From Rhizophlyctis rosea (taxonomy: Eukaryota; Chytridiomycota; Chytridiomycetes; Rhizophlyctidales; Rhizophlyctidaceae), in the NCBI GenBank assembly GCA_027596075.1, contig JADGJC010000012.1, positions 1-64,000 of the forward strand: a DNA stretch of 64,000 nt, read 5' to 3'. The first letter of the stretch is position 1. The number at the start of each line of letters is the position of its first letter. The position numbers and the translations under genes were made by a program. The notes under the pieces are model-generated. The model saw nothing but the letters and a program-made list of their open reading frames with translations. It searched no databases and had not been told where the DNA came from. Positions 5,901 to 54,537 of the stretch are shown in pieces.

Positions 5901-8900
5901 GCCCCTCCATTGCCGATGCCTCAGAAAAGGTGAGCCGCGCGAGAGTATTTGATTGCTCTGCGAGGAAAGTGGACACTGCCTCAGCGTAGTCTTCCAGAAC
6001 GCCACGGAGGGGTAGCACTTCCTACATCCATATCAGCGTTGGTGCATTGAAATGAGGCTACCGTGGGTTCGTAACTTACTACAAATGGCAGAATCGCATC
6101 GGTCTCTTTGCAGCGCCATCGAAGCAGTCGATCCATAACCTCTTCGGGCATTTCCACCATAGTGCATAAGCTTCGTATACCCTCACGGCTTCGTAAGAAA
6201 TAATCTCTGAACACCGCATCTGAACTGAGCACATCCATGTTCTTCGACACATGGGAAGCGGACTTGATCACAGCCTGCCCTCACAGAAGCATCAACAGGA
6301 TTACGCAGTCGTTTCAGTGTATTTCTGTAACTTCGGGTATACCTGTACAATGCGCATGCTCAACATCCATTTGTACAAGCGCACATTCCGCGTTTCCAGT
6401 TCGAATCGGAACTGCGTATTCGCATCCATCGCAACGTCGCGGCTCACTGTGGCCTCGTCAATTTTATTTTCACCGGTGAGCCCACGATCTTCGTCCTCAG
6501 CTAATTCTTCCAGATCAAGATCCTCCAACGGTTGATCATCCCCACCGCCCCCCAAACTTTTTTTGAAAGCTTCATATTCATCATCAAAGCTTGAAGTTGG
6601 TGCTGCAGCGCTGCTAGCGCCCCAATCTAAGCCGCCACCGGAGTGCATTGAGGATGGAGCACCCCAGTCGAAACCGTCGACATCCGCTCCACCCACCATC
6701 GCCGTTGCAGGAGCTCCCCAATCCAATCCACTACTTTCCATGTGAGCAGTGGCTGCAGAGGAAGATGGCGCTCCCCAGTTTGAACCAAGATTCTGATCGG
6801 TTGTCATTTGTGATGCAGGGGAGCCCCAATCTAATGTTGCGGAAGTATTGACTATTTCCTTCAGGCCGCCTCCATCAACCGCTTCGGTCTCCGTCTCCGA
6901 TGGCTGAGAATCAATTGCATCGGCCTTTGCGCTAGCACCCAAAATTCCAATCCCTGGCCCACTAACTCCGGTTGCAACCGTTAATGGTGTGGTCCTGATA
7001 ATCTGCAATGCCAAGCCGGGGCAGCCAAGGCGCTCATAGGCACTGGCACACTGATAAATGAAGGCGCACTCAACATCCGGAGCAATGATTGGTTGTTCCA
7101 TTCGCATTGAACGGTATGACTTGCGGAGGAATGTGTAAAGAATGACCAGGGATGGATCAGCGAATGGAGACGCTGCCGGAGTTGCGTGTTGTAAAGGCGT
7201 AGGCAGGAGAGGAGGCAAGGGCATCTGCGCCGAGCAGATTATTAAGACATCTTACAAGTATATCTACTCACCTACTTACCAAAGTAGCGTAGAGCGCCCG
7301 ATCACGTTGCTTCAATAAGGTAAATACCATGCAAGTCAACCACCGATCGCCCTTCTCAATAGCGCTGGGCAGGATGCTCGAGGTTAAAATTTCTTTGAGC
7401 ACGGGGCTGTCATCGCCTGGATTGCCGTTGTTGAACAATTGGGTTGGGAATCATTGGGAAATATTGTAATTTCACCTTCATAAATTCTACAAATGATGAT
7501 TGCCAGTTGAATATCAGTGAGTTGTTTCAAACAGACATTCACCGCATCCTTCAGTTTGTCTCCCAGCAAAAAGAACGCTACCGCATATTCTGCATTTCAA
7601 AAACGGCGTGATCAGGGATCCAACAAGACTTTTCGCGCGAAATAACACATACCGTATCGTTGTTTTCCCAACAAGGCAAATGCATTCTTTAAGGCGGCGC
7701 TTTTCCATCTGTCAGTCTCAAAGTCATTACTTAAGAACTTGATCATTGCATTCTGTTCCGGATGACCGTTTGCCAACTTCCAAAGACCCAGCAGTACATT
7801 CTTCTTTTTGAGAGCGAGATAGAAAAGGGCACATTCAACCGGGTCTTTCATTGTGTTCTCCTCCTTGCCCATATACTGATTCCGGGCAAGAGTTTCAACC
7901 ATCCGACGAAGGGTTTCGGGGTTCCGTACCCATAGGCCCATCCCAAGAGCGCGTGCGTCCCGCCAGACCAGCTTGTTATTGAAGGCTAATGTGCATGCTT
8001 CCATCAGTATGTCCTAAAGGAAGAGTGCTTAATTATCGACACGCATCTCTATTGAATAGTATACGCTCTACTTCATACCTGGGACTCGCTGAAGAATGCC
8101 CAGGTTGTATCTCTGGAAGTCAACTTCTCCGGCCGTTGTTGGGATAGAAAGGATTTTTGGGAGAACAGAAACATTCTCAAAGGTATCATGTATCGGACGC
8201 CATTTTCGTCCAGGCACCGTTTTTGGTTTTCTACCTGACGAACGTTGCCGTCGACATCATTTATTCCCGTCCGCAATCAATTGCAATGCAACACAATCTT
8301 ACCAACCTGCAGCAGCATATCAATAAGCGCAACGAGTCGTAATTGCTCCGCATTGGATATCCTCGGCAGCGACACCCTCGTTAACTGCTCCGTCAAATAT
8401 GTAGCATGACTTGAATCAAAGTCGCCCACATGGCTTTCCTTGCTGGCAAGCATGGATGAGATTACACGAAAGTATGCGAACAGTCACCCAAAACACCCAC
8501 TTGGCTGAAAAGTCCGTGTCCGCTTCGAACAATGCGTCATACTGCTGTTTACCAGCTGCATCGCCCTACGAAGATGTTAAAACATTGTTGAGCCGCAATT
8601 GGAGGCACCTTGCCCACCTCCGACTCCTGGTCAGACACAAGTTTCCACAATGCTACTGGCGGATCCGCGATCGGTCTTTCAGCCTCTTGCAGCATTTTCA
8701 CAAAATGGAACAGGATGGATAATGAAAATCGGACATATTCAAACTTTCCTGGAAGGATAGTCATTGCCATGTCCTTGGTCATGATAGGAAGTGCAGCTCT
8801 TACCCCATAATAGATACTGAATCATAAGCTGTGGATGGTGATCAGGTAGGCGCCCATTCATATCATCTGCCATTGAGAAAACCGTATTCGAATCGGAGTC

Positions 8901-21635: not shown

Positions 21636-23740
21636 ATGCTGAGCGCTGGGACGCACTCGAACCCTTTCCTTCCGGACGCTGTCGGTGGTCACACGGCACC
21701 AACCGCACAAGGAACCAAATACTTCACGCTGACTGGCAACTCTACTCTCATCACTGACTTCTTCCGTAAGTTGGGCCGGGCTTCTCGTAAAGACGTATCT
21801 CTTGCCTTTGAAACTTAAGCCCCCTAATAACAATTTCGCCTCCTTAAGAATACTGCGCGCAGAGGTTTGTACATTATACTAAGAACCGCCATATATGCTT
21901 CTGCTCACTTGTCCCTCTGTCATAAACAGCATTCTCTTCCTACGGGGGCTTTACCGTCCCAACAGTTAGTACTGCCTGAAACGTCTGCGGTCGCCCTGCA
22001 TCGTTTTCGTTGACATCACCGCACAGGTTTCGAAAAGCGCATCCGCCACAATACTCCCGTAAGAATATCTACCAATGAAGAATTACAGTCCTATTTTCAG
22101 CGAATCGTTGTCAACTTGCAGGGTATGCTCAGTGTGAACTTGACAGCGACTTTCAGAGAGCTGGACAACTTATCTTTGATTGGTGCCATAGGCAAAGTTC
22201 ATGCGGGAATTGTTGACAGAATCGAATTGATCATCACTGCAACAAGAACAAAGGCAGAGGGTAAGCAAATGTCAGCCGTGTCCTGCGTCCGTGGGAAGGG
22301 ACTGGAGAGGGGAAGAGGGGGACGGCGAGTGTGGAAAGAGGGTGGGAGGGTGGGAGGGTGGGCGGGTGGGTGGGTGGGTAAGAAGGCGAGGAGGAGCTGG
22401 GGAGGTGTGGGGAGGAAGGGAAATTTTGGGGGGTTGTGCGTGTGAAGGGTGGGGGGGAGGGAGGGGAGAAGGGAGAGGAGAAGGCGACGGGAAGGGGGGG
22501 TCCACACAACCCCTCTTGGCTAAACCACGTGTGATGTCTAGTTGAGCGTTGGGTGTTTGCAATCCATCACGACGCGTCAGAACTCCCCGAAAGCAAGATA
22601 CAAGAGGAACTCCTGAATACACTCAGAAAAATTGCTCAAAGTGCCGTTCAGTCGACAGGAATTCCTATTCTGGAGATCCCATGTAAGTACCTTTTTGGGA
22701 GACATATGTGTCGTTTTCCATTCGAGCAAAAGCTAAATGACGTGATGAAAGGCACTTTCAGCGTCTCAGCATACACAAAGCGAGGTAAACCGATTCTGGC
22801 AGATTGGGGATCGCCACCTCCTACCGAAAAACCTACTATTCCCCGTTCTCCCGCGTCGATGACGAGTGAACGTGTCTGCGCCCTTTGCACGAAACCCGCA
22901 CAATCATTATGCAGCCGTTGCAAGCAGCGCTACTATTGCTCGAAAGCGTGTCAGGTGACCGATTTCGAATCGCACCGCGAAATTTGTGGGGTTGCATCCA
23001 GTCCCGGCTTTTCTTCTACCCCGCGGCACAGGCCAGCAACAACGTCCCCATTCCGCGACGCGTCACCTACGTCCGGCGACACCGAAAACCCATTCACGTC
23101 TCCACGTCAAGACCGCATCACTGTATCCTCATTACAACGGATGTTGGCCCTTTCAGGAAAGCTCGGCCAACTGTCCATGAGTGAAAAGGACTCTGAGGCA
23201 GGTGGCGGTACGGAAATACCCAAGTCGCGTAAGCCCGTGCACCCACCACCGCCCGCGCAAGTCTGTCATGGTGCGAGACTTCCCAATCTCCTTGATTTTG
23301 CTCGTAGCGCTGGGTATGCTCCTGAAGCTGGCGCTTTGGAGAAGGAAGCTGCTATGGACTTGGCGAACGCCAACTCCATGATAGTAAGCAACGGCGGGAG
23401 TCATGGCTCCAAACGTAAGGAGGCTAGCGAAGATGTGAATGAAAGAAGTGATTCAGAATCCGAAGGGGGGACTGATGAAGATGAGGCAGAGGATATGGAA
23501 GAGCCGGGAGAGGTGACCGACGAGGACGTGGCAATCGATGCGCCCGGTAGGACGGCAGGGACGGGAACAATGGCTGCAAGAGGTATGATGTCCCATCCGG
23601 CGCATCACGGCTTTCCGGAGGATGTGGGGGATGCTGTTGCCGAAGGGAAACTCATCGGACATAAAGTAGGTGAGCAAGGAAACGCCGCTGGGACCAAATT
23701 GGATGACACCTTTGATGAGCGGATGGAAGGGTGGGAGTAA
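21636..23740 (+). CDS. HORMA-domain (Mad2/Rev7-like) protein fused to a MYND zinc finger
   Basis: Predicted 491 residues from seven exons that join in frame: 21636-21765, 21849-21864, 21930-21964, 22027-22122, 22192-22260, 22542-22682 and 22752-23740. Residues ~30-195 form a HORMA domain: FTLTGNSTLITDFF, SILFLRGLYRPNSF, FEKRIRHNTPVRIS (Rev7-like), VDRIELIIT, VERWVFAI (Mad2/Rev7 signature) and ILEIPCTFSVSAYTKRGKP. Next is a complete MYND finger (CALC, CSRC, YYCSKAC, then HREIC). The C-terminal ~240 residues are disordered, Ser/Pro-rich and then strongly acidic (SESEGGTDEDEAEDMEE). HORMA proteins act as topological adaptors in checkpoint, translesion synthesis and meiosis; MYND fingers bind proline-rich peptides. 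The Mad2 C-terminal safety-belt strands are not obvious after the HORMA core. The last codons abut a good donor (GTAAGTT), so an extra terminal exon adding a few residues is possible. Orthology to Mad2, Rev7 or Hop1 is undecided. Confidence 0.8.
22261..22541 (+). other. Long G-rich intron 5 of the HORMA-MYND gene
   Basis: 281-nt intron, about four times longer than the others in this gene. The donor GTAAGC follows GCAGAGG and the acceptor TCTAG precedes TTGAGCGTTGG, restoring AEVERWVF. It contains nearly uninterrupted purine-rich, G-dominated sequence, including the G-quadruplex motif at 22340-22378. Confidence 0.85.
22340..22378 (+). other. Ten-run G-quadruplex motif
   Basis: Ten consecutive GGG runs separated by single nucleotides (T, A or C). 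It lies on the coding strand, so the pre-mRNA carries it too. This is far above the four-run minimum for a stable quadruplex. Confidence 0.9.
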
Positions 23741-29333: not shown

Positions 29334-32300
29334 TTAAGCATAGCCATAACCTTGCGCATGGGAAGGAGGTGGCATATTCATTGCTGGTGGGCCCGCCGGA
29401 CCGGGGTAACGCTTTGAAGGCGAGGGTGATCGGGACTTCTTGGCCATGCCAGACGAAAGTGGATGCGCCAATGGTTCCACTGCCGGCAACGGGAACGCCC
29501 CCTCTACCGATGAAGAATGGTTCAATCCATAACCCCACCCATCCCCATGTTCATAACTGAGCGTCACAATATCTCCGACACGTAACTCCATTTCGTCGCC
29601 AAGTTGGGCTGCGTAATCAACCACAGCACGGTATTGAGCACCCCACCGTACAGAAAACTGTTGTGGTTGTTGATGGTATTGCTGACGTTGTTGCTGCTGA
29701 TGGCGTTGTGGAGGAGATCCGTATTGCTGTTCCCGACGAGAGTGGTTCGCTGCCATTGCAGACCCGCGTGTTGATGGTGGGCTGCGTGCTACGTCCTGCA
29801 TCCGAGGCATCTGCTTCTGAGGTGGCGGTACATAATGCGTTGATGCCGTATGTGAACCTTGCCCAGCACCCCTCGGTTCCATGCCATCCCGGTAGCTACC
29901 TCCACCCTCTCCCAAACTGAAACTAGGCCGTCTTCCCCTCCTTGGCGGCGGTGGATTGGAATTGGAGGTCGGGATTTGGATGGCGTTCACCAACGGCGAC
30001 ACAGCACGAAGTTGGGGCGAGTGTTTGGGGTATAGTGGATTTTGTGGCCCTCCACTCATCTTCCGTTGATTTCGATTGGCCGCCGCTTGGATTTGTGCCC
30101 ATTCCAATTCATACTCGTTCATATCTTCGTCCTTGGCATACTCAATCTCGTTGCCTCCGAATTGATCGACTGGCGGGGACAGTGGTGCTGGTTCCTGCGG
30201 AAGGTGGTGTTCGGGGTGGGTGGGATCTGTAAACCTGACTCCCATCGCTTTCGTGGAGGGCTTGCGCTGCATGTGATTTCCCAAGTGGTCACGCTCGATG
30301 CTGGGCTCGCGAACGCTGCGACGACTTGAGAAGTAGTCTACACTTTCAGCGTTACTGCTTGGCGACGTAGGAACGGGGGACGCATTCAGGTCATAGGTGC
30401 GAGGGGTTCTTTGAGACTGCGGTGAAAGTGGTTGACACTGCTGATGTTGTTGATACGGAATATGATATGCATGCGGCTGATGTGATTGACCAAGGGAAAA
30501 TACCGGAGGGCCGGGAGCTGTGGAAGGGGCTGGTAGGCGTAGAGGGGTGGGAGGAACATATGCGGAGGCAGTGGTCGGTAACTGGGTTCGTGAGTTGGTT
30601 CGAGCAAGACTAGGGAGGTTGGAATCTGAATTGGAGCGAGGAAGACTTGACAGGCTTGTGCCAGAGCTGGTCCTTTGCAGAAGAGGGGAGTTGTCCAGAT
30701 CAAGGATAGATGTCGGGAAGGCGCCAGTCAAAGTCGTGCGAAGGTTACGACCCACCGCATACCCATTATGCCAGGTCTCACTACATACAACAACAAGGAA
30801 ACAGATTCAGTATTGCATATCCAAAAGTCCAAAATACCATTTCGGACCTTGACTTACATGATTTCGACCATGTCACCCGCTTGTAAAGCAAGCTCATCTG
30901 GCAATCGTGGCGTGTAACCTTTCAGACAGCGTACAGGATACTGATGCCCAAACGCATTCTTGTTGATTGTCCCCTTTCGCCCTAAGCCTGGGCTGCCCGG
31001 TGACCCCAAAAGCGGGCTCGTCCTCGGTCCCATAGCAGGCGATGATGCCTTCAACGATGAACCGCCACCGATGCGACCAGATGCATTACTCCGCGCCGAA
31101 TGACTGCTCCCACTGCTAGCCTTCCTGGTTGCCGCACCCATACCATCCTTGATCAAATCTTCTGCCAATTGTCCAGCATTGGCCATGGGGTCGACAGATA
31201 ATTTTGCCAAATCGTGTCTGACTTCCTTCATGGCCGCCTCGACCACATCTGATCCACCCGTCACATCCGCAAAACCTTCTCTGTCCAGTTCCCCACTAGA
31301 TCGCTCCGCCAAGATTGGCATAGCTCCCGCTCCCATTCCTGAGGCAGGTCCACTCTTGCTTTTGAACAGACTAGGTCGACTTCTGTTCCCCAACTCTTTC
31401 CCCCTATTCCCAGCTCCAACCGTGTTCTTTCGTCCCAATGGTATAAACGTATCAGGTCCCAAGCCATGTGCACCGCCAGCACCCATTCCCGGAACTGGCG
31501 GCATGGTCGGCCCTGGTGGTGAAGATCCATATCCGTACCCATACGAATCGACACTCTTTGACGGCATTATTCCCATGCTGGACGGGGGATAAGGTGATCG
31601 ACTGCTTCCCATGAATGTGTTTCGCCGACCGTCTCCACTCAGGCTGAAGTCGCCCAAAGGAGTATTTGGGGATGCATAAGCACGCGCAGGCGGCGTTGTC
31701 GGATCATTGAACCGCGGTTCCCCTTCTCTACTTCGACCCCTCGGTTCTCTCCCCGGTCCATTCCACGGAAACAAAAGTCTAACCGGAACAACAATCTCCG
31801 TGCTCCGTACAATATTGCGCAAGGTGTCCCTGAACCGAATGAGGATTTGCGCTTCGTGACTGACTGTTGCTGTGAGCAAATCCATGGACGATTGGGCTTT
31901 TTGGATAGGGATTTGAAAGGATAGTATGAGTGCTTCTTGAGTGTGTGAAACCGGCGAAGACGAAGGAGAGGAGGGTGGAGTAGGGATATGGGAGGGTGTA
32001 GGTGCAGAAAGTGGTCGAGTTTGGGGGGGCGTGCTGGTGTCTCTGAAGTATCGGTAAGATTTCATCAGTGACATATCAGGTTATTGCACATGCAGCCCAA
32101 ATGACTGACTTGAACGTGATCCTCTCCATCCATGAACACTCGACCATTTCAATTCGCATGCTTTCCAAACGCGGAAAGAGCTGCAAAGTCATCTCCTTCG
32201 GTTCTGACTCAATGAAAACGGGCTGAGGAAAGGTAGCCACATATGATAAGGAACCTAGATTCGTCCCTGGGCGTGAGTTGCGTGATTTGGTCAGAAAGGT

Positions 32301-35875: not shown

Positions 35876-38800
35876 ATGTATGCCACCAACTTCCGTCCCG
35901 TCTACCTCGCCGTTTGTCTTCACCTCCTCGTTACCATTCTCTTCTCTCCCTCCACTTGGGCACAAACACCAAAAAGCGAATACCGCAATGTCACGGGACA
36001 AGGCAATAATCTTATGAATGGCAATTGGGGTGCTGCCATGCAGCCATATACCTTCGGTTCGTTACCCTTCGTAAATTGGTATACACCACAACAACCACAG
36101 GGCACCATGAACGCCCGAAATGTCAGTACTTTGCTCCAAGCCATCCCGACCGAACCCAGTCCGAGAAACCTGACCGATTTTGTGACCTATTGGGCCGAAT
36201 TCATCACGATGGGTATGTTTGGGTAGGACTTTATCTCGGTGCCATATGGCGGAATTTAATGAATGGGTCAACAGATATTACACGTACCTTCCGGTCGCCC
36301 GCAAACGTCTCTGTCCCAATACCCGTCCCTCCTGGAGATAAATCGTTTAGTGCCATTGGGGCCGCCAATGCGTCCATACCGATGTACCGTGTGTCCACCC
36401 CCAACGATACTACTGCATCAGGTCCACTCAAGATCAACCAGGCAACAGCTTGGTTGGACGCCAGTATGATCTACGGAGCGGATTCCACTCACAGGGATGC
36501 GATCCGAGCTCCGGGAGGGCTCTTGAAATTGGGAGGTAATGGGTTACCCGTCACGCAAGGCGAAGATGTCAACTTCCGAAACTTGACGGTGTGGGTGAAC
36601 TCAGGTAAATCCCTAATCAGTTTGCAGCCGGAGGCGGCCTAACTTATTCGTACATGACACACAGGCACCCCCGGTCCTAGCTTGTTCACATTCGGGACTG
36701 TCAACGGCAATACACATCCAATCCTTCAATCACTCTTTATCCTCTTCATGCGGGAACACAATCGCAGAGTCGCACAACTCAAAAAATCGAACTCTGCACT
36801 CACAGATGACCAACTCTACGAACTCGCCCGCGTCCACGTTATCGCACTCATCCAGCAAATCACCTACTACGAATATCTCCCGATCGTATTTGGTATCAAC
36901 CCTCTCTCAATCTACAAAGGATACAACCAGTCCGCTGACCCGACCGTCGATACATTCTTTGAGACCGTCAGTTTTCGGTATGGCCATAGCGAAGTCAACC
37001 CCTATCAATTGTTCGTGAATCTTGAAGGCCAACGAAGCACATACGCTCTCCACGACATTTTCTTCAACAACGACCTGGTCAGAAAGCTCGGAATAGAAGG
37101 TTTTCTTACTGGTGCCGCAACAGCCATTCAACAAAAGCCCGCTTGCTCCGTTGTGGACGATCTGCGGAACGTGTTGTTTGGGAATAAAGTCATGGATTTG
37201 TTCGCGTTGGATATTGAGCGGAGTCGGGATTTCGGGGTGCCGACTTACAACGATGTCAGGGAGAAGTTTGGAAGACCTAGGGCGAAGACGTGGGATGACG
37301 TGACGACCAACCCAAAGTACAAAGCGCAGTTGCAACTGACGTACGGGAATGTGGACGCCCTCGATGCCATAGTCGGTGGTCAATTGGAAGATCGGAGTGA
37401 CGGAACGAACTTGGGACCTCTGTTCCGAGATAACATTGCAGACATGTTTAGGAGGCTTAGAGATGGGGATCGTTTCTGGTTCGAAAACGTTGGTGGACCT
37501 GGTTCGCCGGACAATCTGGATGAGATCAAGAACACCACTTTGAGGGATGTAATCGTTCGGAATGCGATGGACAATATGTTGGGCCCCTTGCCGAGCAATC
37601 TCTGGGCCAGTATCCCTCCGCTAAGTTCACTCCCTGCGCCATCGACCTCCATCAAATACCACGTTGAACTAGTTCCCGACATTCTCCGACTATCCTTCCA
37701 AATTGAGGACCCCGACCACGTTAGGCTCCTGATTGAATGTACGGCTCTGCAATGGTGCGGAATCGGTTTCGGTACCGGAATGCAAAACGGAGACTTTATT
37801 GTGATTCGTGCCGATGATTCAGGGAAGATGAGTGTGAACGAGTATTCATCGCAAGGGAGGGGTGTTCAACCGAGTCCCAGGTCTGCGGGGGAGAGCTTGT
37901 TGAATGTCGTCAGCGCAAATAAAGCGGGGGGTGTGATGTCGGTGGAGGTGATTAGGAAGAACAGCGCGACGGGCGCCGCTAACAATGGCCGGAATTACGT
38001 CGCGACAAACGGATATACGGGGATGTTTTATGCTTTCCATCCGGGGCCCAGAGTGAGCGATCCTACTGGTGGACTGGGGTGGTTCTTGTTCCATGGGTTG
38101 TCGAATTGGTGAGTAGTCCTTTGATGGATGGTTTTTTATGAGATCACCCATTTACCGATCCCATTTTCTTTAGTGGAACAAACGAAATCAATTTCTCCAC
38201 TGGAGCATCCAACGTACTTAGCACTGGTTCAAACAGCTCACGCAGGGACTCTCACGGGTTGGGCATGGGTATCGTGTGGGGAGTCATCTTCCCCTTCGCA
38301 GTGTTTTACTCTCGGTTCTTGCGGCACACGAAAGGCTGGTTGTGGGTCCACATCACACTCCAAATCATCGGTTCTCTTATTGTCCTCTTCATGGCCGGCT
38401 GGATCCTTTCTGACCCCGCCTCCGACATGAACGCCCCCAACGTCCCTCAGCACGCTTACTTGGGTTTCGTCCTCGTAGCCTGTGTAATCGTCCAGCTCCT
38501 TCTTGGTATGCTGAACCAGCAGCGCATGCAAAACGAACGATTGGCTACTGTGGCGTCAAGAATCCGATGGTTGCATGATTGGATAGGGCGATTTATGATC
38601 GTGGCCGGGTTTGTCCAGATTGGGTTGGGTGTCAATGTGATATATCCTATGTTGACGGGCGCGGGAGGGCCTGGAGTCGGACCTTCGCATCCCATATGGA
38701 TTGGATACTTGCTGGGGGTTGTTGGATGGGTCATCATCTTCGTGGCAGCCGAGGTGGGTATCTTGACTTCGACTTCACATGATTATTCGCGCCTTCTGAC

Positions 38801-40941
38801 CCACCCCTTGACAGTGCTTCTTTGTCTACCGCGTTCGCGCCGGACTCAAACAAACCGAATCACCGTCCATCCCTCGTTCCCGCTCCACTATCTCCGTTAA
38901 GCGCGCCAGTCGCCGCAATGACTCCCAGTCTTCTCGCACCGAAATGCTTGCCATCACACGAAACGATTCTGAGAAGGACGCGAGCAGGAATGGTAGCCTT
39001 AATTCCATAAGGCATTCATTGACTGCTAAACGAACTAGCACAAAGAGTGTGAAGGGGATCATGTCTTTGAAGTTTGATTTGGAGGAGGGAGCCAGGAAGC
39101 CGTTGATGACTTGGAGGGAGGTTGGAGAGCGGATTTTGGCGGGGTAAGATCTGTCCCTTGTTTGATGAGATGGGAATCAAATTGTAAATCTCAACGTTCT
39201 GTCCTGCTGCAGGGAGATGCTTGTAGTCGGAAATGGCCGCTACGTCTACGACATTGCACCATGGGCACCACACCATCCCGGTGGAAGACTGGTACTCAAC
39301 GCCGTCATCGGAACTGACATCACCGTCGACTTCTTCAACGAAGCAGACTTCGATGGGACCGCATACACACCCGGCAAAGTAATCAAAAAGAAGAACACAG
39401 AAGTACCTCGATCGCAGGCGCAGGCCGCCGCAGCCGCCCGGATGTTACACCGGCAGAACGGGGATATAGCAAGACGGGGGAGCGGGGGCTCGAACAGGGA
39501 AGCACCACCATATGGGATGTTCGACAAACGGCCCGGGTCAAGCCTTTCGAACGGAGAGGAAGAAGATGTGACGGCTGGTACGCCACAACTCAACCTCTCA
39601 GAAGCAGAGTGGAACGCGGTCCGAAAGTCGAGAATGACACATAGGCACGGGAGGTTCGCGGTGCAAAAACTAGTCACGTTCATGATCGGAGAATTGGAGG
39701 ATGAGAGTGGGATACCAATTGCGTTGTCGGACATGGCGGGGGTGGTCAACCCAGGCGGGCCCAATGGGATGAACATTCACGGCGGTGCTGGCAATTCAAA
39801 CTTGCGGGCGTTCAATCGATACGAATTTAGGCGGTACGCTTTGGTCCACAAGGTGCAGGCAAACTCGAAGGACGCGTTGGTGCCCGTATTCCGGATGCGG
39901 TTCGCTTTGGTCTATCCGTTCCACGCTCTTCGACGGAACGAACCGACACGTTTCCTGCCTGGTCAGTGTATCGAGATCGTAGATAGGTTGGTGGGACATG
40001 GACTGGTACCCAGATACTACACTCCCATATCCGGCAGTCCAGCATGTTTCGATGTATTGGTGAAGTGCTACCCGGACGGGTTGATGGGCACAAACTTGAT
40101 GAAGCGGAAGCCGGGAGATCGCCAGTTCAAGATTCGGGGACCTTTCGGTACGCCGCTGTTGGTGCCTGAAAAGCCCATCTCGATGAAGATCTCGGATTCT
40201 TTAGTGTATGGGTTGGGAGGATACTATCAGACGTTGGTGTTGGTCGGAGCGGGAGCGGGTATTAGTCCTTGCCTGCAATTCATTCGGGAGTATTTCTTGC
40301 CGATTGGACGTACTGTGGTGGCAAACGAGGAGTACCTGCCTGAGCAAGCAGACGAATTGCCGTTGGTTCCTGGTGACAAGATATCTGTCTTGCACGAAAG
40401 CGGAGATGGATGGGCTTATGGAATTGTGAGTATCAATGCGATGTGCAACTCTTGCAACATGCACAATAACTAACACATTGGTTATTTTCAGAACCGAGCA
40501 ACTCACGATGAAGGCTCCTTCCCCCTTTCCCTTGTCACCCCACCACCAGGTTTACACGTCCGCGTCCTTCTCATCAACTGCGTTCGTAGCCAAGGCGACA
40601 TCACTGGCACCGACATCCTCTCACCAGCTCTTCGCGCCTACCCCTCCCTTCTCCAAATCCATCACTTTGTTTCCCGCCGTCCTTCCCACCCAGTCGCCAA
40701 CCCGCCACCAGGTGAAATCAGTTATGGCCGACTTACACCCCATATCCTGGAGGACATGGTGGCGCCCTTGTGGCGCGATACTGCCCACGTTCCTGCGCGC
40801 CGAGTAGTTGTGTGTGGGCCTAGTGTGTTGGAAAGCATGGTATTTGATACGCTCATCGATACTTGCGGGGTGGATGCTGAAGACATCTTCGTACTGCCGC
40901 CCAACTCTTACTATTCCACGGAGAAGGGACGGTCAGGTTAA
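35876..40941 (+). CDS. Haem peroxidase-DOMON-cytochrome b561-cytochrome b5-FAD/NAD(P)H reductase fusion with inserted SH3
   Basis: About 1,560 residues from seven exons (35876-36212, 36275-36604, 36665-38108, 38174-38753, 38815-39143, 39213-40425, 40492-40941), all in phase. Order: signal peptide (1-~30); animal-type haem peroxidase (~40-535; WLDASMIYGAD, FMREHNRRVAQL, proximal His330 in FRYGHSEVNP); DOMON (~555-715; WCGIGFGTGMQNGDF); cytochrome b561 (~725-897) with all four expected His (DSHGLG, WVHITLQ, PQHAYLG, LHDWIGR); basic Ser-rich linker; cytochrome b5 (~995-1160; HHPGG, then a ~90-residue insert before HRHGRFAVQKL); FAD domain with RYYTPIS; NAD(P) motif LVGAGAGISPCLQFIREYF; SH3 (~1372-1425; DELPLVPGD, GDGWAYG, GSFPLSLV); and the rest of the reductase with VVVCGPSVLE. 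Electrons should flow from cytosolic NAD(P)H through FAD, b5 and b561 to the outside. The peroxidase distal His, Arg and haem-linking acids are replaced. The product could reduce oxygen, metal or quinones; this is inference. Confidence 0.9.
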
Positions 40942-41327: not shown

Positions 41328-41912
41328 TCAGCGGTTACAAACCAAGGGCTCATTCCCTCTTTCTTCCAACAAACGCCTCAGTCGATCCACCCACTCATCG
41401 AATCGACCATCCACATCTCCCACTTCAGGAATGATGCATACCCCATGTTCAACCAAATTCGCCGCAACCCTACACATCCTTTCCGCATGTCGTAAAATCT
41501 TACGACCCTCATCCTCGCGCCCTTTAGCAATGAACTTTTCCGCTTTCAGCCTATCTAATTCTACACGATTCAGGACCCACGAAAGGAAAACAGCAACTTT
41601 AGGAAGCGTAGGATGTGGTGGTGGTAGGGAACGAAGGATATGTGATGGTGGCAGGTACTCCAGTAGTACATGTAAGAAACTGCCTTCGGCGACGAGATTT
41701 TGGAAGGTGGAGAGTGATAGGATGGAGATATCGGTTTGTCGGGTGTGGAGAGACGCGGGAGAAGAGGAGGGGTATGGCTTGGCGATTAAGATCAGGTCAT
41801 AGTCGGAAGCTTCTGTATGCGTGTTCCACAGTCTGCTGCCGACCAAGTATGCACCTATGATGTTAGAATCTTCAAGTTTCAATGTCTTGAGTATATTAGG
41901 TAGGGAAAGCAT
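41328..41912 (-). CDS. Minimal nucleotidyltransferase-fold protein
   Basis: Single-exon gene of 194 residues, started at the first ATG (41910-41912); the frame runs slightly further upstream only through TTG. Residues ~20-45 read GAYLVGSRLWNTHTEASDYD, the GS...DxD motif of the DNA polymerase beta-like nucleotidyltransferase superfamily (MNT type), placing the metal-binding acids at S-D-Y-D. A third acid could be the D in QTDISIL, which sits on the expected strand. The C-terminal half is helical (VELDRLKAEKFIAKGREDEG, KILRHAERMCRVAANLVEHG) and resembles HEPN-like or substrate-binding helices. The substrate is unknown; such proteins add AMP or nucleotides to proteins, RNA or small molecules. 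The absence of introns in an intron-rich neighbourhood and the MNT-like form hint at bacterial ancestry, which is inference. Confidence 0.65.
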   Translation of the reverse strand: MLSLPNILKTLKLEDSNIIGAYLVGSRLWNTHTEASDYDLILIAKPYPSSSPASLHTRQTDISILSLSTFQNLVAEGSFLHVLLEYLPPSHILRSLPPPHPTLPKVAVFLSWVLNRVELDRLKAEKFIAKGREDEGRKILRHAERMCRVAANLVEHGVCIIPEVGDVDGRFDEWVDRLRRLLEERGNEPLVCNR

Positions 41913-42388
41913 TTCTGCCAATTTCAAGATGCGCAAAATGTATCGGTCAAAGAGTATGCGGAGGAGCTGGGGGAGTGGAGGTGGAGGTGGCAGGGGAGGT
42001 GGGGGCTTTTATGTTTTTTGGTGTGTGACTGTGCCTTATTTGCGGGTGGGCCTGGGAAATTTGTTCATCTAACTCTGCCCATTTAGAAGCCATCTAATGA
42101 CGAGCGGCACCAATTGATTTTCCACTTGAATGGAACCCAGGAAGGTACTCGCAGAATGAGTAAGTGGGCAGTCAAGGGGATTGCGCATCCTCGAAATTGC
42201 ATCAAACGAAAGGAAAGGAGAAGAGAGCTGGGAGCTTGCCACTTTGAGAATGTATACATAATCAGTGTTTACCCGAAGCAAATACATGGTAAACAATCAC
42301 AAAAGCTCTATTGTGTGGTATATTCCAGTGTGCTATGACAAACATCTCGTCATATACACAATTATCTGGTGGAAAACATGGGAACAAT
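41913..42388. other. Intergenic, promoter of nucleotidyltransferase gene
   Basis: Holds the nucleotidyltransferase promoter and the 3' flank of the SPRY gene. A purine-rich GGAGGTGG-type run lies at 41975-42005 just upstream of the start. Nothing else was recognised. Confidence 0.45.
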
Positions 42389-51900: not shown

Positions 51901-54537
51901 CTACTTTGGAGATGTCGGACTATATCTAGCCGGCGGACCAGTTTTCACTCGTCGTGCCCTCCCTTGCGCCAACGGGACATCCCCACCAGACGCCTCGTCC
52001 CCGTCCTCCTTCTTTACACCCCCCACATCCCCAATCCCATCCTGCTCCACTTCTTCGTCATCTGTGCTCGAATCACACGCCTCACACCTATGATGGACAA
52101 GAGCATTGGATACTGACCCCCCAGCCGAGAACTTAAAAAAAAAAAAAAACATACCTCCAAGCAAACCCCCTAGGAACCGGCTTTTCCAACGGCGGATCCA
52201 CACACCCGAAATGAAACAACTTATGACAACGTTCACACTCCACCAACCGATGCGCCTTCGGCGTATTCGTACCGACGGACGATTCAAACGTTTTGCATAC
52301 GGAACAGAGGCCAACGGGGTCACGCCTGACGGACGGTGGTGTAAGATCTCCTCCCGCTGATGACGACGGCGCAGATGTAGGTTCTGCTTTGACTGCACCG
52401 TGACGTCGCCTCTTATGATGGCTGCCGTAGCTGAGTGCTGGTGAGTTTCTGTTGGAGCTTATCCCGCGAGGAGGCGGCGGCTTCGGTGCATGTTCCAACG
52501 TCTCATGATACGCATCCAGGAACATCGTCGCATACGCAGGATCAAGAGCTAAGGTGTCTCCAGACTGTACAAAAGCTTCAATGATGCTGAAGTCGCTGGT
52601 GTCATGCGAAGCCGGTGGACTTTCGCCGAATGTTACCAATGTGCTCAGAATGTTGTGTTTGAGGGCATCCGTGGCGTCTTTCCTGATCTGGACGTCTTCT
52701 CGCGCTTGTGCCAAGATGCCTTCCAATTTGTTTAGTTCCTCCGTTGCGGTTGGGGTGTCGTAATCTACATTCCATTTCGCGGCCTCAAGTCGACATTGCT
52801 CATGCAACAAATGGCGGATTTCTCCCTCCTGCCGGCGCTTCATGTCGGCATATGCAGATTCGAGGAAGGGACGAGGATCGTTGACTTGTTGAGAAGTGAT
52901 TCCATTTTGCGCCACAGGGTCGGTGAATTGGTCGACTACTTTCTCTTTCTGTCGAACCCAGCGAGCCCATCGATTCAACTGCGCACAGGTGAAGGCCGAC
53001 TAATCAGACTCCGGCCAGAATGTGTATCAGGACGAAAACCTGATTTACCTGAGGCTCATCCGCGGATCCGTGCTGCTTGCAATATTGGAACCATGGATCC
53101 GCCATGTCCTCGTCAGTGACCTCCTCCAGCAAACCGAGGTCAGCAGCGCATGTGGCATGGAACTATAAATGATTGATAAGCCGCCAAAGTGAATGTTGTT
53201 ACAGCTCCTACTCGACCTACCGACTTCTTGCATCCGTGTGCTTGGCAAGGTATCTTGCAACCGAACTTGGCATTGTCCTCATTTGTACAAAGGGAACATA
53301 CCTATGTGGTTCGAGAGTTAGCAATGATATTGATCTAGTGAATCGCATTCTTCTCTTACCATATCCCAGCATTTTGGGTAGATTGCCTCCAGATCAATAT
53401 TCGCAATTCTGTCATTGTGGCGTTAGCACTCCATATTCTCACGTCATTCAAAACCTTTGCCATAGCTTACGTATTTTCATCGAATTCCTGAAACAATGGT
53501 GCAGTGGTTAGTACATTGTATCTCAAGAGATACAAAAGCGAGTCAACGCTTACCACATCTTCATTCCACCAGACACACAATACGTGCACCCACATGTCTG
53601 AATCGCCCACCCGTTTCACTGCACCCTCCTTCTTCGGGCAAAGTACGCACGTCTAGCAGTAAGGAGCAATGGTCTATCAAAACTGCAACACTCTTTGGGA
53701 TCTTCCCCATTCATGCTTACCGCTATAAAAGGATCAACAGCATTGCACCTGTCGCACAGCCACCCGACGGGCGATACGTTGCCCACGCCGTAACAATTTC
53801 GGTGGACTGTCACAGGACATGCTGGACTGGTGCATTTTATCAACTCGTCCCCTGCGCTTCCGCTTTTGTGACAACAGCAACAAATATTTGGATTTTTCGC
53901 TTTCTGTAAATCCCAATCATTTTCAATAGGTCGCTCTATCCCACATAAGTGCAAGAGTAAACCACCATCAACCTACCCATTCAGCAAGGACGCGATCCCT
54001 TTCCATTTGATGTGTATTCTGGATGATGTACCGACTCAAAAAAGGTTGCAAAGGCTGCGCCTTCTCCTCGATTTCGACCGCCTTCCCCTTTCCCTTCACA
54101 TCGCCAGCTTTTGTCTTTGCCGACTTTCTTCCCTTCGAAGGGGCAGCCGTCCTGGCTTTCCGCCGTTTGGGACTTTCAGCAGCAGCGTCTCCGGCATTGT
54201 GTTTGCGTTTGTGACTTGTTTTGGCTGACGCTGCAGGAACAAAAGAAGAGTCAGTCCTGTTGTATATTCCGGTGTGCCAACTCGCGGTGAGCGTGGGAAC
54301 GTAAACAAAAACTGACGCATAGTATTGACTGAACGACCAAGTTGGTGCCTGAGAATGAGCGAGAAGGTGTCTGATGTTCAAAAGAAGTATGAAAGCCACG
54401 ACAGCTGCGGTAGGATGTACGAAACGCTATCCTTGATAGTTTTCGGGTATGGCTGATAGTTGCGACCACAATTGTAGATCTGAAGCTGCGGGGGAAGGAA
54501 GACCACGGCCGGTTTCAGGCCTGGCCTTTCTTCCCAT
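51901..54537 (-). CDS. PHF14-like multi-PHD-finger chromatin protein
   Basis: Nuclear histone-reader candidate. A Lys/Arg-rich nuclear-localisation segment (54010-54230; KTSHKRKHNAGDAAAESPKRR) precedes PHD1 (NICCCCHKSGSAGDELIKC, VTVHRNCYGVG, GWLCDRC). It continues directly into an extended PHD: CVLCPKKEGAVKRVG, WVHVLCVWWNEDV, then zinc ligands near 53300 and FHATC, and ADPWFQYCKQHG. The DPxFxYCKQH ending is characteristic of PHF14 rather than JADE or BRPF. A coiled middle follows (52400-52978), then a second classical PHD at 52133-52335 (LCSVCKTFESSV, LVECERCHKLFHFGCVDPPL, WRCEAC), its last Cys pair coming from the final exon after an intron with a poly-T run. Stop TAG at 51901. The 5' end is uncertain: the nearest good ATG (54535-54537, MGRKARPETGRGLPSP) needs an intron I could not place. 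Confidence 0.75.

Follow-up and report, generated by a model that had tools for sequence, protein, structure and literature searches.

A predicted single-protein electron chain joining a remodelled peroxidase-fold ectodomain to a cytochrome b561 core in Rhizophlyctis rosea and other zoosporic fungi

Dual oxidases (DUOX1 and DUOX2) combine in one chain a signal peptide, a peroxidase-homology ectodomain with an altered active site, a transmembrane haem core and a cytosolic FAD/NAD(P)H module. A similar layout made from other parts, with cytochrome b561, DOMON and cytochrome b5 where DUOX has an NADPH oxidase (NOX) core and with an SH3 domain within the reductase, is predicted for a gene at 35876-40941 of the stretch analysed here (the window), i.e., the first 64,000 nucleotides of contig JADGJC010000012.1 (assembly GCA_027596075.1) of Rhizophlyctis rosea, a chytrid that lives in soil and belongs to the order Rhizophlyctidales according to a lineage look-up. 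In human DUOX1, the haem-ligand His of the ectodomain is absent and no haem density was reported (PMC7794343). A review likewise describes dual oxidases as lacking the proximal His (PMC4420034), and a survey of peroxidases in 331 genomes, 216 of them from fungi and oomycetes, reports Duox from Metazoa and a single choanoflagellate and from no other group (PMC4029949).

A second group of described proteins, CYBDOM (FRRS1/SDR2, CG8399, Arabidopsis HYP1/CRR), resembles the predicted protein in carrying a DOMON with Met/His ligands followed by a b561 with four His, both of which are given as features of the family (PMC10691727). The CYBDOM protein HYP1 moves electrons outwards and reduces ferric and cupric substrates in an ascorbate-dependent manner (PMC10784544), whereas the predicted protein has a built-in donor module. 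An SH3 domain in the NADPH-binding domain is described for a Naegleria NOX as well (PMC3591440), but that is a NOX-core protein, likened here by its description. In contrast to NADH-cytochrome b5 reductase, nitrate reductase and CYB5R4, the fungal protein would have a b5 domain split by 67-129 residues, an SH3 domain in the NAD subdomain and a transmembrane chain. To our knowledge, CYBDOM proteins carry no b5, reductase or peroxidase.

According to a splice model and comparison with relatives, the gene lies on the forward strand, as do all of its features given below, and encodes a fused protein of 1,560 amino acids in seven exons (35876-36212, 36275-36604, 36665-38108, 38174-38753, 38815-39143, 39213-40425 and 40492-40941). 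The six introns are all GT-AG and 60-69 nucleotides long, the spliced exons sum to 4,683 nucleotides (1,560 codons with a single terminal stop, all in phase), and ACC stands directly 5' of the ATG. The modules follow one another as signal peptide, An_peroxidase, DOMON, four-His b561, cytochrome b5 and b5-reductase-type FAD/NAD(P)H. Both the in-phase joining of seven exons and this module order had been proposed by a first-pass annotation made from the letters of the DNA, and both agree with what was found: a deposited R. rosea protein, HDV00_001094 (P0001), shows 98% identity by BLASTP and equals the window model minus 27 residues, and the order is supported by Pfam matches on the spliced protein, by ligand conservation and by nine further fused proteins. 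The missing residues, 816-842, are encoded by an 81-nucleotide segment (38506-38586) that the public P0001 model treats as an intron; as the segment includes the fourth b561 His, His838, and has a counterpart, His included, in 9/9 other fused proteins, this intron call is probably wrong. The match to P0001, together with nine further proteins that align from peroxidase to reductase, indicates that the join is neither chance nor an assembly accident, and sequence comparison thus confirms that peroxidase and reductase are parts of one predicted protein.

In the full-length search, scoring was confined to the 7,990 candidates with the most words in common, so that no absence elsewhere can be read from it; it returned 15 proteins at E<=0.001, ten of which align over the whole joined architecture. 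These ten come from R. rosea, Borealophlyctis, Spizellomyces punctatus (SPPG_06812), Geranomyces (two proteins), Thoreauomyces, Quaeritorhiza, Nowakowskiella, Cladochytrium and Blastocladiella, i.e., from nine genera and two phyla, with Blastocladiella in the other phylum (by lineage look-up for Rhizophlyctis, Blastocladiella and Quaeritorhiza). By sequence, the fusion is thus a recurrent design of zoosporic fungi rather than a peculiarity of R. rosea, as the first-pass annotation had it, and the joined form is not absent from relatives. The fused sequences are already public as hypothetical or misnamed entries, under names that include hypothetical protein, heme peroxidase and DOMON domain-containing protein frrs1L; one of them, P0002, begins as deposited within the peroxidase domain and has no signal peptide.

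A query running from DOMON onward returned 23 proteins, namely three fused ones (P0001-P0003) and 20 others, listed without a peroxidase domain, which carry the remaining modules, the chassis, whole or in part. Sixteen of these 20 are from named organisms, which we take to be chytrids, and four are ENA or JGI entries; P0019 is marked partial, and the short entries P0032, P0034 and P0035 cover just 37-67% of the query. Together with P0011 from the full-length search, they form the set of 21 plain proteins used below. At least three chassis loci occur in the R. rosea genome (the window, on contig C24, and loci on C85 and C1). Ferric-reductase/NOX-type domains (PF01794) were found at 15 places in the same genome, the window not being one of them, so the b561-based chain would be additional to proteins of that type. 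As regards a single origin of the fusion, the fused rows lie on one side of a branch with a support of only 75/78 in a tree of the chassis, and the fused ectodomains group together at 100/98 in a tree of their own.

The outer end of the protein is predicted to consist of a signal peptide (about residues 1-29, 35876-35962, with a hydrophobic stretch at 4-29) and an An_peroxidase domain (residues 36-524, 35981-37569, PF03098 E 4e-109) that contains introns 1 and 2. The pockets of the ten fused proteins were compared with those of 23 peroxidases (20 of bacterial or metagenomic origin and 3 of peroxidasin type), using the residue numbers of MPO. The proximal side is kept: His336, which is His330 in the window protein (FRYGH, codon 36985-36987), is present in 10/10 fused proteins and 23/23 comparison rows, and the Arg of the RYGH motif and Arg424 are likewise present in all ten. 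So are the Ca2+-site residues Asp96, Asp172 and Ser174 (Asp113, Asp174 and Ser176 in the window protein), while Thr170 in the window numbering is found in 8/10 and replaced by Ser in two. The distal side, in contrast, is rebuilt. The distal His95 is gone in nine of the ten, Met taking its place in the window protein, and the distal Arg239 is gone in all ten, whereas both are intact in 23/23 comparison rows, including the 20 bacterial or metagenomic ones. In every fused protein, Gln91 has become Glu and Glu242 has become Thr, the ester Glu being found in 0/10; position 99 is His in 9/10 and Arg (residue 116) in the window protein. The Asn beside the proximal His is Asp in 10/10, a change also seen in 4/23 comparison rows. 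In the numbering of the window protein, the new conserved set reads Glu108, Thr239 and His or Arg116; the remodelled distal motif of the window protein, E108-F-I-T-M-D113-I-T-R116 (36197-36285), is split by intron 1.

With the distal His lost in 9/10 and the distal Arg in 10/10, ordinary peroxidase activity of the fused ectodomain is unlikely, and the uniformity of the replacements suggests that the pocket has taken on a new job rather than decayed. Of the tethered peroxidase fold proposed at first, the fold stands and the proximal His is kept, but ordinary activity does not agree with a distal His kept in 1/10 and a distal Arg kept in 0/10.

Between the ectodomain and the membrane lies a DOMON (about residues 545-715, 37630-38207, intron 3 inside) with the putative haem ligands Met595 (37780-37782) and His699 (38092-38094), which are present in 10/10 fused proteins and in 18/21 and 20/21 plain proteins, respectively. 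No DOMON match in Pfam is listed for the window protein; the family was matched in 6/6 relatives scanned (E 1.6e-7 to 7e-3), and precomputed database domains give PF03351 for five of the ten fused proteins. The DOMON with its Met/His ligands would lie on the outer side of the membrane. The b561 module (38235-38838, intron 4 inside) has five transmembrane stretches and the ligands His731, His763, His797 and His838; this four-His b561, as proposed in the first-pass annotation, is complete in 10/10 fused proteins. Its Pfam match in the window protein covers residues 755-857 (E 5.6e-4, 20.6 bits vs. a 23-bit cut-off), and the cut-off is exceeded in four of the six relatives scanned (P0004, P0009, P0016 and P0021). 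Among the 21 plain proteins, position 763 is Lys in four and a gap in one; the four with Lys are P0029, P0031, P0032 and P0034, as if one ligand of the inner haem had been lost.

By hydropathy, the protein has a signal-like segment at 4-29 and, inside 730-908, five transmembrane stretches. If the N-terminus is outside, the outer helix ends would hold His731 and His797 and the inner ends His763 and His838, and a strongly basic stretch follows the fifth stretch, as expected by sequence on the cytosolic side. In b561 proteins, H1 and H3 are described as non-cytoplasmic and H2 and H4 as cytoplasmic (PMC10691727).

The cytosolic half begins with the first part of a cytochrome b5 (residues 996-1050, 39109-39342, intron 5 inside), which contains HPGG and His1028 and covers positions 1-52 of the 74 of PF00173 (match at 996-1048, E 8e-8). 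A second part (39601-39696; HxHG..A...L..F.IGEL, His1152), recognised by conservation and by matching of the b5 tail, places the second ligand 124 residues past the first, within a HxH[S/T/G]..A motif. The variable insert between them (39343-39600) leaves 67-129 residues between its flanks in 31/32 rows, and both axial His are likewise present in 31/32, the exception being P0035, which has no listed b5 domain. When the insert was removed, the joined b5 covered positions 1-73 of 74 in 3/3 proteins, but also in 1/3 controls with a shuffled second half, and a single shuffle of that half cost only 3.0, 3.1 and 6.7 bits. In a PDB search with the joined b5, the second His aligned to that of cytochrome b5. 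The best ungapped match of a b5 tail (1es1) fell on the HxH site in 30/30 proteins, 13 of which beat all 300 shuffles; this tail carries an additional His by which the site is favoured, and with a tail that has no such His the site was chosen in 28/30, with 8/30 beating all 200 shuffles and 23/30 beaten by at most ten. For a b5 split by an insert of about 100 residues, the main arguments are conservation and position.

The b5-reductase-type FAD/NAD(P)H module (about residues 1205-1560, 39805-40938, intron 6 inside) is indicated by FAD_binding_6 (PF00970, 1246-1320, E 5.5e-6) and by a chassis model of the relative P0016 (mean predicted local distance difference test, pLDDT, 68), which matched the fold of NADH-cytochrome b5 reductase in a search that barely probed the DOMON, b561 and b5 parts. 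Inside its NAD(P)H subdomain sits a predicted SH3 domain (about residues 1376-1428, 40318-40542, again with intron 6 inside; SH3_1, PF00018, at 1380-1422, E 3e-7), a family matched in 6/6 relatives scanned and above the cut-off in four of them (P0002, P0004, P0016 and P0021). Of the families named in the first-pass annotation, An_peroxidase, Cyt-b5 and FAD_binding_6 were thus recovered in the window protein, Cyt_b561 came under its cut-off and DOMON was not matched; its inventory of modules stands as listed, but it had missed the SH3 domain, the split b5 and the remodelled peroxidase pocket.

These modules can be arranged into an electron chain that is complete in itself and would sit in the plasma membrane or the secretory pathway. 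Cytosolic NAD(P)H would reduce FAD in the cytochrome-b5-reductase fold, and the electrons would move on first to the haem of the split b5 (His1028/His1152), then to those of b561, the inner (His763/His838) before the outer (His731/His797), and next, outside, to the DOMON haem (Met595/His699). From there, they may reach the tethered animal-peroxidase fold, which probably still bears haem on the proximal His330 and in which the peroxide-cleaving residues have been swapped for Glu108, Thr239 and His or Arg116; it would most likely be a reductive haem site acting on O2 or peroxide, rather than an H2O2-using oxidiser of substrates. The SH3 domain probably serves as a docking site for regulation. 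Ligand residues can be identified at each of these steps; haem occupancy, electron flow, its direction and the final acceptor are what we infer. An outward chain driven by NAD(P)H is very likely, and the earlier reading of a one-protein path from NAD(P)H to the outside gains support from the modules, their order and the ligands. The complete statement, a one-protein chain that ends in a haem-bearing, reductive, non-classical peroxidase-fold domain, appears slightly more probable than not, and it is conceivable, as a more tentative proposal, that zoosporic fungi possess a second dual-oxidase-like design in which cytosolic NAD(P)H, via b5, b561 and DOMON haems, powers a peroxidase fold that has become a haem enzyme reducing O2 or peroxide, with a distal pocket of new and conserved make-up.

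Several observations weigh against the reductive-haem chain. The DOMON match stays under the Pfam cut-off in every protein scanned, and the first Gly of the NAD(P)H motif is found in just 3/10 fused proteins, with the Pro in 7/10. The Blastocladiella protein keeps the distal His, residue 116 in R. rosea itself is Arg, not His, and the structure model of the ectodomain is too poor for use (mean pLDDT 47). In addition, DUOX1 indicates that a peroxidase-type domain can persist without haem (PMC7794343). A more basic objection, that two or three adjacent genes were merged by automatic gene finding, could appeal to a public R. rosea model with at least one doubtful 81-nucleotide intron, but it is scarcely credible against exons that run in phase without interruption, short introns and an identical join in eight other genera, one of them from another phylum.

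The main rival is that the peroxidase-like domain is a haem-free lid, scaffold or adhesion module and that the chain stops at the DOMON haem, which would reduce Fe3+, Cu2+ or O2; in that case, the protein would be a metalloreductase or a maker of superoxide, supplied by NAD(P)H and topped by a structural cap. Such a cap would fit the loss of the distal His and Arg, the 20 entries that have a whole or partial chassis and no peroxidase domain, from which the chassis is presumably able to work alone, the metalloreductase activity described for HYP1 (PMC10784544) and the missing haem-ligand His and haem density of the DUOX1 ectodomain (PMC7794343). However, 10/10 fused proteins share the proximal His, two Arg close to it and the newly acquired Glu and Thr, a constancy needless for a scaffold, and DUOX1, by contrast, has no proximal His; we regard the haem-free cap as unlikely, if still a serious candidate. 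Quite improbable is a third arrangement, the stronger form of the first-pass proposal, in which H2O2 or superoxide produced on the outside by the membrane part is used by a tethered true peroxidase on walls or plant polymers: the full-length fold (E 4e-109), the retained proximal His and Ca2+-site residues and the secreted topology would suit it, but the distal His is missing in 9/10 and the distal Arg in 10/10, vs. both present in 23/23 comparison rows.

Returning to the dual oxidases, the fused ectodomain can be aligned to that of DUOX over its full length, and the DUOX-like layout proposed at first, a peroxidase ectodomain, a transmembrane haem core and FAD/NAD(P)H in one chain, is supported. 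However, PF01794, the NOX/ferric-reductase core, has no match at E<=1 in the fused protein, PF08030 reaches only E 0.17, and no EF-hand family is matched at E<=1, so its domain content places the protein outside NOX and DUOX; judged by its sequence, it works like a dual oxidase in layout but is not one. The two also differ in the side of the pocket that each kept: both DUOX1 rows of the alignment have Arg at the distal Arg position and neither the distal nor the proximal His, whereas the fused proteins keep the proximal His and have lost the distal Arg, the distal His being lacking in both.

The nearest non-fused relatives of the peroxidase domain among the matches listed are bacterial-type single-domain peroxidases and Dictyostelium peroxinectin A; in a search limited to proteins of at most 896 amino acids, metagenomic/bacterial peroxidases showed 31-38% identity among the best 120 of 200 matches. 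The closest solved structures are 8s6c, peroxinectin A, DUOX1 and myeloperoxidase. The family profile finds its best PDB match in 6erc, peroxinectin A, and matches DUOX1 (7d3e) with E 1.2e-76. In trees, the fused and DUOX domains group together with a support of 91 in a quick tree, 98/89 in a careful one and 100/99 without peroxinectin A and P0064. Placing DUOX with peroxidasin and MPO was weakly rejected (approximately unbiased test, p-AU 0.043), as was DUOX with peroxinectin A (0.028), but a group of the fusion and P0064 that leaves DUOX outside was not (p-AU 0.16). When the active-site stretches were removed, the DUOX grouping left the best tree, by 0.23 log units. Given this unrejected placement, the loss of the grouping and the representation of DUOX by two near-identical sequences on a long branch, kinship with DUOX is no result to build on.

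P0064, which groups nearest the fused and DUOX domains, is a metagenome peroxidase of 607 amino acids with intact distal and proximal residues; to judge from its hydrophobic tail, it may be a secreted protein of a eukaryote. Another An_peroxidase locus of the R. rosea genome lies at G000:C277:18140-19772, and further ones are on C127, C387 and C442. As donors of the fused domain, these were set aside: tblastn with the window peroxidase (E<=1e-3) matched only the C277 loci L002 and L003, at just 27-31% identity, and none of L004-L007.

In the titles and abstract openings of open papers, no description of the fusion is found among the matches listed, in line with the remark in the first-pass annotation that no protein with all these modules had been described. 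The modules are known, and, as far as those listings go, the combination, the split b5, the placement of SH3 in a b561 protein and the rebuilt pocket are undescribed; the earlier interpretation as a whole is partly supported. If the chain exists as proposed, a single polypeptide would hold a multi-haem transmembrane wire that connects NAD(P)H with a haem enzyme on the outer side of the cell, and the dual-oxidase layout would have been reached by a second route. The distal pocket, rebuilt much alike across two phyla, would offer a natural test of a peroxidase fold fed with electrons instead of peroxide. The purpose of the modified peroxidase domain of DUOX has been termed obscure (PMC4420034), and this puzzle might be approached through a protein in which the proximal ligand is kept and the distal ones are lost.

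Elsewhere in the window, none of the ten long open frames scanned matched a redox family (E<=0.01). Frames at 6304-7248 (-), 22535-23737 (+) and 52136-52996 (-) gave Rav1p_C, MYND-finger and PHD-finger matches, respectively. The next frame downstream of the fused gene, 41331-42005 (-), is nucleotidyltransferase-like (PF18765, E 1.3e-4, under the cut-off), and about 5 kb upstream, a 489-codon open frame (29337-30803, -) encodes an SH3 domain (PF14604, E 6.9e-10).

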